Shown here one piece after another: positions 12,398 through 20,041 of a stretch of 38,077 nt of DNA. The stretch covers positions 1 through 38,077 of the forward strand of contig JAEUHH010000117.1 in the NCBI GenBank assembly GCA_016795505.1. The letters are read 5' to 3'. Made by a program: the position numbers and the translations under genes. Source of the stretch: Verrucomicrobiales bacterium (GTDB lineage: Bacteria; Verrucomicrobiota; Verrucomicrobiia; Verrucomicrobiales; DEV007). The notes below the pieces were generated by a model. The model searched no databases and was not told the DNA's origin. It saw only the letters and a list, made by a program, of their open reading frames with translations. The stretch's first letter is position 1; the number at the start of each line of letters is the position of its first letter.

Positions 12398-14335
12398 TCA
12401 GGCGGAGAGTCGGCTGGCGGGGCGCAGCTCTGTCGAGGCGGAGAGTCGGCTGTCGATCACCGTCACTGCCGGTGAAGACGCGATCTCGTGGAGAAAATCC
12501 GAGCGTCGGCTGGCCGTGATCGCGAGAAAACTTTCCGCGCGGGTCATGGCCACGTAGAGGAGCCTGCGGTCGCGGGCTTCCTGTTCCCAGGTGGAGCGTT
12601 CCTTGGGCAACTGGTCGGCCCAGATCAGGATGACGGCGCGGAATTGCAGGCCTTTGGAGGAATGAACGGTCTGGATCTTCAGTGAGCCCGGCTTCATCAC
12701 GCCCGATTCCGTGGCGCCGAACCATTCCGCCTCGACTCCAAGTTCCGCGGCGATGCGGGACGGCAGGGAGCGAAGCACCTTTTTCTCCGCGTCCGAGGCA
12801 CGGGGGTAGAGAATACCGATTTCTCCGGGCGACAGCGGGGCGCTGGCCTGGCCCTGCCATTGGCCGGCCAGGAGATCGCGTACGAGTTCGATGACACGAT
12901 CCAACTCGCCCTCCCGATTCATCTCCCGGAAAAACAGCGGCGAGGCGCCGGTGCTACGGACGCAGCGGCGCGGATCGACCCGGACGGATTCGATCCAGTC
13001 GCCGCTGGTGTCGTCGAGCGACTCCGTGCGGGTGGCGAAGGTCTCCGCCAGGGTCAGGATCTCGGTCGAGTTGCGGTAGTTCTGGTCGAGATCGAATCGG
13101 ACCGAACTCGTCCGGCCGCGTGCCTTGATGCCGAGGCGGCTCCAGGTCACCTTCGACCGCTGGTAGATGCTCTGCGAGCCGTCGGCGACGATGAGCAGGT
13201 CGCCATCCTCCGGATCTTTCATTGCGGCCAGCAGGCAGGAAAACCAGACCGGCTCGAAGTCCTGGGCCTCGTCGATCAGGACCGCGTCGAAGCTCGCAGA
13301 GTCGCGGGAGCCGGCTCGCAGATGGTGCAACAATTGCTCACCCACCTCGGTATTGGTGAATTCCCGGCGGAACATGACGCCGTTGCGTTTGGCGAGGGCG
13401 TGGAAGGTCGTCACGGTCACCTGGGGCAGGTCGGCCAGCCGGCGACGCAGCCAGAATGTCAATTGCCGGTTGTAACACACGAGGAGGATGCGTGCCCTCG
13501 GGGACAGTGTCGCGAGCAGCCGCGCGCGGGTGACGAGAATGATGGTCTTTCCCGATCCGGCGACCCCGTAGAGGATGCGATGGCCTTCCCCGATCGTCGC
13601 GGCATACTCCTCCTGCCGCAGATCGAGCACCTGCACGACATCCTGCCGATCGTGGATGGGGCGCGGGGCGCGATTCAGTTCCTCGATGGAGAAGCGGTTC
13701 TCGAAATCGATCTCGGGATGCACCAGGGCGCGCAGGGCCTTGAATTCCTCGCCTGACAATGGGCTGAACGTCCAGCGGATCTGAAAGCAGCCCTTCAGCG
13801 CGTCGAGCAGGTCTTCGGGCGACAGCTCCATCCACGCATCGAGCTGGTCGCGGGGAATGACCTGACCAGCCGGGAAGAGATCGGTCAGCGGGCGCTCGGG
13901 GTCGTTCAGTTGTTTCGAGGTGATGTTCGACAGCGTGACCACATGGCCGACCGGCAGCTTGAGCCGACCCTGATGCGGGCCGTCTTCGTGAAGAAAGCGC
14001 GATCCAAATCGGCTGTTCTCCGCGGCGCGCCGGATCACTTCGTTGTAGCTCCGGGCTTGTTCGATCGGGTGGGTGACCGTCTTCTCCTCGTCGCCTTCCA
14101 GCAGCGTGATCGAGGCCAGATCGCCGCGGATGATGGAGCCGGGACGCCAGTTTTTGTCCTCGATGACAAGAATGCCGAGCGTGGGAGACAACACGACGAA
14201 ATCCGGATGGCGGCCGCAGACATTCGGCTCGTAATAGACCACACAGTCCTCCGGCAGCCGGGACAGGAGCGCGTGCAGTCTGGCTTCGCCAGCGGTGCAT
14301 CGGGAGGATGGTCGGGAGGGAATGATCGTGGCCAT
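12398..14335 (-). CDS. NERD nuclease domain fused to UvrD-like superfamily 1 helicase
   Basis: A 645-residue two-part protein. The N-terminal NERD domain has a PD-(D/E)xK-type site, with Asp45 (HPDFVVL) and Glu59-x-Lys61 (VIEDKNW). The C-terminal SF1 helicase has Walker A GVAGSGKT, Walker B VLIDEAQDF, motif III ADGSQSIYQR, motif IV LDQNYRN, motif V TVHSSKGLQ and motif VI LLYVAMTRAE. All are intact, so nuclease and helicase activity are both plausible. Such fusions act in DNA processing, and related nuclease-helicases occur in anti-phage defence. No other defence gene is adjacent except the CPBP protease, so a defence role is only a possibility. The AT-rich stretch 14350-14400 just upstream is the likely promoter region. 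Confidence 0.9.
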   Translation of the reverse strand: MATIIPSRPSSRCTAGEARLHALLSRLPEDCVVYYEPNVCGRHPDFVVLSPTLGILVIEDKNWRPGSIIRGDLASITLLEGDEEKTVTHPIEQARSYNEVIRRAAENSRFGSRFLHEDGPHQGRLKLPVGHVVTLSNITSKQLNDPERPLTDLFPAGQVIPRDQLDAWMELSPEDLLDALKGCFQIRWTFSPLSGEEFKALRALVHPEIDFENRFSIEELNRAPRPIHDRQDVVQVLDLRQEEYAATIGEGHRILYGVAGSGKTIILVTRARLLATLSPRARILLVCYNRQLTFWLRRRLADLPQVTVTTFHALAKRNGVMFRREFTNTEVGEQLLHHLRAGSRDSASFDAVLIDEAQDFEPVWFSCLLAAMKDPEDGDLLIVADGSQSIYQRSKVTWSRLGIKARGRTSSVRFDLDQNYRNSTEILTLAETFATRTESLDDTSGDWIESVRVDPRRCVRSTGASPLFFREMNREGELDRVIELVRDLLAGQWQGQASAPLSPGEIGILYPRASDAEKKVLRSLPSRIAAELGVEAEWFGATESGVMKPGSLKIQTVHSSKGLQFRAVILIWADQLPKERSTWEQEARDRRLLYVAMTRAESFLAITASRRSDFLHEIASSPAVTVIDSRLSASTELRPASRLSA

Positions 14336-17465: not shown

Positions 17466-17663
17466 GGGGGCGAAGTGGCCCCTCACTTATCTTCCCGCCG
17501 CGCCGGTGGAATACGCATTGCACTCTTGTGGGATTTCAAAATTGCTTCGAAAGGTGAACCGTCCCTTTCGCCTTTGCCAACATCCGAAACCGAGACGGCA
17601 GATTCCTGCAACTGCGTCGGCATTTCGATCCATCGACCACCCTGTCCAACGAAAAGAAAATCC

Positions 17664-19220
17664 GTGGCTCACTCTGATTCACCGACCCTGCCCTCTTCAA
17701 GCCCCGACCTGGCCACAGCCATCGCCGCCCTCGAGGCCGTCGTGCGCGACCGCGCCCTGCTCAATGCCCTGAGCCCCGAGGACCGACAGCGCCTTCTCAC
17801 CGCCGCCGGCGACGTCTTCTGCCCCGACGTGTCCCAGCGTCGCCGACAGGTCAAAGCCCGCCAGCGCGAGCGCAAAGCCAGCCAGATCGACCGCACCGAG
17901 GAAGTCCTCCACCAGACCGGCATCCGCGAGTTGCGTCGCCGGCCCGTTTTCACCACCCCGAATGTCTACCCACCCGCCCTCGGCGAACCCGTCGAGGTGG
18001 ACGACCCCGCCTTCCGCGAGGTCGTCGAGCCGCAGAATTGCTACATCTGCAAAAGCGACTACCAACTCATCCACCATTTTTACGACCAGCTCTGTCCCGC
18101 CTGTGCCGAGCTGAACTTCCGCAAGCGCACCGAGACCGCCGACCTGCGCGGTCGCGTCGCCCTGCTCACCGGCGGGCGGGTGAAGATCGGCTACCAGGCT
18201 GGCATCAAGCTGCTCCGCGCCGGCGCCGAGTTGATCGTCACCACCCGGTTTCCCCGCGATGCCGCCCTGCGCTACTCCCAGGAGCCCGATTTCACCGTCT
18301 GGGGCCACCGGCTCAAGATCTTCGGCCTCGACCTGCGCCACACCCCCAGCGTCGAGGCTTTTTGCCACCATCTGCTGGAGACCCGCGAGCGGCTCGACTT
18401 CATCATCAGCAACGCCTGCCAGACCGTCCGGCGCCCCCCCGATTTCTACCTCCACATGATGGACCGCGAGAGTGCCGACCTCCGCGAGTTGCCCGGCGAT
18501 AGCGCCAGCCTGCTCGGCGAATACGAAGGCCTGCGCGGCTACCACATGCTGCCCGAGGGCCGGGATCAGACGGCCGATGCGCTCGCCGAGCCCGCCGCCG
18601 CCTCCCTGGCCGGCCTCACCCATGCCGCCGCGCTCTCCCAGGCGCCCCTGCTGCCCGACGAGCAGACTGCCCGCAGCCACCTGTTCCCCCAGGGGCAGCT
18701 CGATCAGGACCTCCAGCAGATCGACCTGCGCGAGCGCAATTCCTGGCGCCTCCTTCTGGCCGAGGTGCCCACCGTCGAGTTGCTCGAGACCCAGCTCGTC
18801 AATGCCGTCGCCCCCTTCGTGCTCAATGCCCGCCTCAAGCAGCTCATGATGCGCAGCCCCGAGCGCGACAAGCACATCGTCAACGTCTCCGCCGTCGAGG
18901 GCCAGTTCTACCGCAAATTCAAGACCACCCGCCATCCCCATACCAACATGGCCAAGGCCGCGCTGAACATGATGACCCGCACCAGTGCCGCCGACTACCA
19001 CGCCGACGGCATCCACATGAACGCTGTCGATACCGGCTGGGTCACCGACGAGGACCCCGTCCACATCGCCGAGCGCAAAGTGGACGAGCACCGTTTCCAC
19101 CCGCCCCTCGACATCGTCGACGGCGCCGCCCGCATCGTCGATCCCATCATCGACGGCTTCAATACCGGCGAGCACATCTGGGGCAAATTCCTCAAGGACT
19201 ACCGCCCGACGGATTGGTGA
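17664..19220 (+). CDS. Large SDR-fold oxidoreductase with Cys4 motif and altered active site
   Basis: About 518 residues from GTG 17664 (the frame is open to 17475, but the first 63 residues look non-coding). An N-terminal helical, Arg/Gln-rich segment is followed by a Cys4 motif: C126-x2-C129-x14-C144-x2-C147, probably a zinc knuckle. A Rossmann/SDR domain starts near residue 160. The glycine motif reads TGGRVKIG, with Lys where classical SDRs have the middle Gly. NVSAVEG gives the usual Ser, but the helix Lys (TNMAKAAL) has Thr four residues before it instead of Tyr; an alternative YxxxK (YRKFK) lies just upstream. A roughly 100-residue insertion (residues 260-370) separates the two halves. 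Cofactor use and activity are uncertain. Confidence 0.82.
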
Positions 19221-19267
19221 GAATGGATGCAAAGGCAGATCGCTGATCGGGAAGGGGAGTCATTTCC

Positions 19268-19311: not shown

Positions 19312-19384
19312 AAGCCCAGGTCGGCAGAGTCGGCGCGGATTTGCGGTTTCCGCCACGGCGGCCTTGTGGGACACTCTTTTCACC

Positions 19385-20041
19385 ATGACGCCGCCCACCA
19401 CCCCACCGGAGCCGAACCGCAACCACCGCTGCCGCATCGTCGTGACGGGCGGGCCGGGTGGCGGGAAGACGACAGCGGCGGACCTGTTTCGGCGGGAGAT
19501 CGGCGATCGGGTGGTGATCGTGCCGGAGGCGGCCACGATGATGTTCCAGGGCGGTTTTCCCCGCTCGACCGAGCCCGATGCGGTCCGCGCCGCCCAGCGG
19601 GCCATCTACCACGTGCAGCGGAATCTGGAGGACATCCAGGCGATCCGCTACCCGGACCGCATCCTCCTCTGCGACCGGGGCACGATTGATGGCGCGGCCT
19701 ATTGGCCGGAGCAGGACGGGGATTTTTTCGACCACCTCGGCACCACGCTGGATGCCGAACTGGCGCGCTACGACGGGGTGATCTTTTTCGAAAGCGCGGC
19801 GGTGGGAGGTCTCGGGATCGAGGGGGGCAATCCGGTGCGTCGCGAGACGCTGGCCGAGGCGGCGGCGCTGGATGCGAAGCTGCGCCACTACTGGTCGCGA
19901 CACGAGCGCTTCGTGGTGGTGCATCACAACCCGTCGTTTTTCAAAAAGATCTCCTTCGCCCTGGCGATGCTCGACGAGATGGTGGCCGAGTTGTGCCGGC
20001 TGCGGGAGGAGCGGCTGGCGCGGCTGCGGACGATGGCGTGA
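19385..20041 (+). CDS. AAA_28-type P-loop ATPase
   Basis: A 218-residue P-loop protein. Walker A GGPGGGKTT lies about 22 residues in, followed by EAATMMFQGGFP. The DRGTIDGAAYWP block near residue 95 is typical of the AAA_28 (NadR/TTD14-like) group. A Walker B-like strand precedes it (ILLCDRG). Members resemble small-molecule kinases, and no substrate is known for this one. The start is ATG 19385 (an earlier ATG at 19364 is possible). It precedes fxsA by 39 nt on the same strand. Nearby genes give no further hint of its job. Confidence 0.87.
   Translation: MTPPTTPPEPNRNHRCRIVVTGGPGGGKTTAADLFRREIGDRVVIVPEAATMMFQGGFPRSTEPDAVRAAQRAIYHVQRNLEDIQAIRYPDRILLCDRGTIDGAAYWPEQDGDFFDHLGTTLDAELARYDGVIFFESAAVGGLGIEGGNPVRRETLAEAAALDAKLRHYWSRHERFVVVHHNPSFFKKISFALAMLDEMVAELCRLREERLARLRTMA

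Follow-up and report, generated by a model that had tools for sequence, protein, structure and literature searches.

Classical SDRs, such as FabG, gluconate 5-dehydrogenase and tropinone reductase, combine a Rossmann fold with a TGxxxGxG cofactor motif, a catalytic Ser, a YxxxK motif and the tetrad Asn and Lys. Some described enzymes depart from this pattern. The pteridine reductase PTR1 keeps Tyr-x3-Lys and is not known to have a Cys4 module or a large insertion, and eugenol synthase belongs to an atypical SDR subfamily with a different glycine motif and no known Cys4. In PTR1 and FolM, the cofactor motif reads TGX3RXG, so that a basic residue occupies the position of the middle Gly (PMC1971073). 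Eugenol synthase lacks the catalytic Tyr but retains the Lys, which is essential and through which catalysis proceeds (PMC1991597). There are precedents both for a glycine motif altered in this way and for an SDR enzyme without the Tyr.

Here we present a computational analysis of a 518-residue protein (the Cys4-SDR protein) encoded at positions 17664–19220 (+) of a 38,077-nucleotide stretch of DNA (the window) from a Verrucomicrobiales bacterium. Its family shares with the classical SDRs the Rossmann fold, the order of strands and helices, the Asn-Ala after strand 4, and the tetrad Asn and Lys. Unlike them, it has Lys for the middle Gly, Ala for the catalytic Ser and Thr for the catalytic Tyr, together with four cysteines (Cys4), an insertion of 50–109 residues and a further four-residue insertion before the Tyr position. 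With the pteridine reductases it has in common a basic residue at that Gly position, although this is Lys and never Arg in 39 sequences of the family; with eugenol synthase and other PIP-family SDRs it has in common the missing Tyr and the retained Lys. Our preferred reading, to which we assign a probability of about 55%, is that the protein would belong to an undescribed family of SDR-fold enzymes and work as a stand-alone, NADP(H)-dependent enzyme whose active site uses neither Tyr nor Ser.

Gene and domain organization

The start codon of the gene is uncertain: the frame is open from 17475 to 19220 (+), and the GTG at 17664 is the putative start. Translation from this codon gives 518 residues and agrees with the coordinates and motif numbering of the original prediction, with the cysteines spaced C126-x2-C129-x14-C144-x2-C147 and HTNMAK at residues 426–431. 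The N-terminal region (residues 1–125; 17664–18038) is predicted to be helical between residues 14 and 92; it is variable, and nearly missing from a prophage homologue. The Cys4 module (CYIC-x14-CPAC, residues 126–147; 18039–18104) follows, and then the cofactor loop TGGRVKIG (residues 169–176; 18168–18191), in which the middle Gly is replaced by K174. R195, within TRFP (residues 194–197; 18243–18254), comes after strand 2. The strand-4 loop (residues 250–262; 18411–18449) contains the invariant residues N250, Q253, T254 and Y262. The active-site segment (residues 408–432; 18885–18959) comprises A410, E412, the insertion R417–K420, H424, H426, T427 and K431. All of these features lie on the forward strand.

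Pfam recognizes the SDR domain in two halves, adh_short (residues 165–255) and adh_short_C2 (residues 368–462), and both halves were found in 40 of 40 family members. Between them lies the insertion of about 100 residues that had been noticed from the sequence (residues 263–364; 18450–18755, +). It is 102 residues long in the window protein and 50–109 in relatives, and ends in an invariant N359-S360-W361. On the opposite strand, a 511-residue open frame (17697–19232, −) is mirrored in relatives; high GC content and strong conservation most likely account for it.

Relatives, distribution and selection

Relatives were gathered by a pattern-based scan of a collection of 84,980 genomes, which yielded 339 confirmed members. 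The best 80 of these 339 are 70–79% identical to the window protein over nearly its full length, and come from metagenome-assembled genomes mostly labelled Verrucomicrobiota (two are labelled Gemmatimonadota). The gene is carried by 5 of 288 sampled genomes in the phylum of the window, 10 of 190 in its order, and 15 of 61 in the phylum of L068 (labelled Gemmatimonadaceae). Three of the latter genomes have two complete copies (the pairs L104/L112, L107/L113 and L103/L114), and the second copies retain all key residues. More distant relatives occur on plasmid records of Deinococcus, Tsukamurella and two Streptomyces (43–49% identity), on a cyanobacterium-like IMG/VR contig whose host was assigned by reading of the sequence (46%; a compact homologue of 431 residues) and, in compact form, on a prophage contig of IMG/VR (40%). 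The prophage copy (L157, 10190–11296, −; 368 residues) lies near integrase-like, terminase-like and DNA methylase-like ORFs, named by eye, and is possibly a phage-carried metabolic gene. A search of phage records with the window protein gave no match. A match to phrog_3142 was discarded: this is a general SDR model that also has matches in 13 of 14 control genomes. In the tree, most Verrucomicrobiota sequences group together (100/97 support) with L054 outside, and the second copies from genomes labelled Gemmatimonadota form a clade of their own; owing to long branches, the deep branching order is unsure.

Conservation was judged in a close set of 81 sequences and in a broad set of 39, which also takes in the Deinococcus, Tsukamurella, Streptomyces, cyanobacterium-like and prophage sequences and reaches down to about 40% identity. 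In the broad set, 82 columns are identical in all 39 sequences; many are polar, and this invariance argues against a decayed pseudoenzyme. Divergence at codon positions 1, 2 and 3 is 0.20, 0.145 and 0.487, respectively, indicating purifying selection on the protein. With 80 homologues and this codon-position pattern, the gene is far beyond chance. The loss of the canonical catalytic residues is what a pseudogene-like, decayed SDR or a chance ORF would display, but the identity of 70–79% in 80 loci, the excess of third-position divergence and the invariant columns refute such an origin, to which we give practically no weight.

Replacement of the canonical active-site residues

We used hhalign to align the family profile with 18 canonical SDRs that the same genome encodes (probability 99.8, E 3.9e-29). 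The middle Gly falls on K174, the tetrad Asn on N380, the catalytic Ser on A410, the catalytic Tyr on T427 and the Lys on K431. In the same alignment, residues 417–420 (RKFK) form a four-residue insertion specific to the family, of which K420 is invariant. Profile and fold recognition both place the protein in the SDR superfamily, and the classical Asn and Lys of the tetrad are present (N380 in 26 of 27 diverse relatives, K431 in all 27). The remaining classical motifs are absent. The cofactor motif is TGGRxKIG instead of TGxxxGxG, and K174 is invariant in the 39 diverse sequences, so that the Lys first seen in the window protein is a property of the family. YxxxK is replaced by T427-x3-K431; the Thr four residues before the helix Lys, also part of the original prediction, is invariant together with that Lys in both the 81 close and the 39 broad sequences. 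The replacement of the catalytic Ser by A410 (invariant in the broad set and in 80 of 81 close sequences) and the identification of RKFK as a family insertion go beyond what had been predicted. Among clear SDRs of the same genome, identified by motif regular expressions, the middle position is Gly, with a few Ala or Thr and Lys in none; YxxxK is present in nearly all of these SDRs, and the Cys4 pattern in none.

Invariance in the close and broad sets extends to all four cysteines, R172, R195, N250, S409, E412, K420, H424, H426, N428, D456, G458 and W459, and in the broad set also to D223 and Y262. The four cysteines that had been predicted to precede the Rossmann part (C126, C129, C144 and C147) are thus a constant feature. 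No aligned homologue has the canonical Gly or Tyr and none has lost a cysteine; neither of the two outcomes that would have spoken against the prediction was seen. One detail did not hold up: Y416 of YRKFK, suggested as an alternative catalytic Tyr, is not conserved outside close relatives, being T, N, G or S in 5 of 27 diverse relatives and Q in the prophage copy.

The residue at the Tyr position depends on the alignment. HMMER pairwise alignments with the single PDB chains 4ibo and 8hjw put H426 opposite the Tyr with a one-residue gap, whereas the profile–profile alignment places T427 there without a gap, and sequence alone does not settle between the two. The HMMER placement, together with the invariance of H426 and Y262, would suit ordinary chemistry, with one of these residues standing in for Tyr in a conventional carbonyl/alcohol or enoyl reductase that depends on NADP(H); FabI and the dienoyl-CoA reductases depart from YxxxK and yet are ordinary reductases. 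As the gapless alignment of T427 speaks against it, we consider a conventional reductase improbable.

Predicted structure and the Cys4 module

AlphaFold, run twice, produced models that are partial (mean pLDDT 62 and 66, with the active-site segment 411–426 below 50), and we therefore make no claim about residue geometry. The first model has SDR topology and matched solved SDRs with a VIA Z of about 20 over residues 156–518, in line with the SDR-like fold of the original prediction; a PDB search found no close relative of the window protein. The best matches of the second model in BFVD were 'oxidoreductases' of giant viruses (Harvfovirus A0A3G5A578, Homavirus A0A3G5A6W1 and Klosneuvirus A0A1V0SKJ3), at 24–29% identity over 431–454 alignment columns, which takes in almost the entire protein; other viral SDRs were far behind. 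These matches suggest that the family extends to viruses of eukaryotes. A search for giant-virus copies with the pattern HTNMAKA returned none beyond two contigs already known.

The Cys4 module has the hallmarks of a treble clef or zinc knuckle: it comprises two invariant CxxC pairs, and in both AlphaFold models a helix (residues 145–156) begins at the second of them. The module is probably a treble-clef-like zinc module and would have a structural or recognition role.

Gene context and database comparisons

Clustering of ORFs over the Verrucomicrobiota, Gemmatimonadota-labelled and distant loci revealed no conserved neighbour. The large clusters consisted of the Cys4-SDR gene itself and ORFs in its other frames, and the commonest real-looking neighbour was a RidA-like ORF (by eye) at 11 loci. 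In the window, an AAA_28 ATPase lies just downstream (19364–20041, +), a link that was not seen in other genomes, and a UvrD-like helicase that carries a NERD nuclease-related domain at its N terminus is encoded at 12398–14335 (−). PADLOC defence-system families gave no match.

Among the NCBIfam SDR equivalogs, the best by E-value scored 60.4 bits against a cut-off of 303, and all 25 listed were far below their cut-offs. Annotated relatives carry only the name 'SDR family NAD(P)-dependent oxidoreductase', and a literature search for the family found nothing on it. These results and the lack of a close PDB relative support the earlier suspicion, raised by its combination of features, that the protein corresponds to no described enzyme. 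The family is an undescribed branch of the SDR superfamily and not a new kind of protein.

Proposed function

R172 and R195 correspond in position to an Arg pair that binds the 2'-phosphate of NADP in the 7alpha-HSDH of C. absonum (PMC4785404). They would bind the same group here and, because of this match, NADP(H) is the likely cofactor. K174 may reach the pyrophosphate or the substrate, as is thought for the Arg of the pteridine reductases. Around K431, residues H424, H426, K420, E412, Y262 and T427 could form a binding and proton-relay site; by analogy to eugenol synthase, the putative working site would be K431 with T427, H426, H424 and K420. The basic cluster at this site suggests an anionic substrate, one that might be converted without a Tyr as general acid. 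The NSW with which the insertion ends may act as a lid.

The SDR profile and fold matches, the 82 invariant residues and purifying selection favour an enzyme; the lack of a conserved gene neighbourhood, the lack of a characterized relative and the partial AlphaFold models count against one, and conservation cannot by itself prove catalysis. Instead of catalysing a reaction, the protein might sense NADP(H) and serve as a scaffold or regulator: its SDR domain would bind the dinucleotide as a redox signal (as in NmrA and HSCARG), and its Cys4 module and N-terminal helices would bind protein or nucleic acid. The loss of both the catalytic Ser and Tyr in every member, the attached zinc-knuckle-like module and the absence of conserved metabolic neighbours would all fit such a role. 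However, the invariant polar residues E412, K420, H424, H426, T427, N428, K431 and Y262 exceed what dinucleotide binding needs, and the N-terminal region is the variable part that the prophage homologue nearly dispenses with. We consider a sensor unlikely, if somewhat less so than a conventional reductase. The non-enzymatic alternative of the original prediction is accordingly not favoured, the cofactor loop and the active-site surroundings being among the most conserved parts of the protein.

Under the preferred enzymatic reading, new chemistry, as originally suggested, is possible. We tentatively entertain, at clearly less than even odds, a widespread family whose redox or non-redox reaction depends on an arrangement that has not been described in SDRs: Thr/His/Lys with Ala at the Ser position, Lys within the glycine loop, and a zinc module beside the active site. 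Such a family would be shared by several phyla of bacteria, one prophage and, apparently, giant viruses.

Automatic annotation as 'SDR family oxidoreductase' has kept the Cys4-SDR family hidden. The strict invariance yields a short list of residues that makes the enzyme and sensor readings directly testable. An enzymatic role would add a further way in which the SDR fold is put to work, and a sensory role would mean that bacteria possess a conserved module that reads NADP(H).
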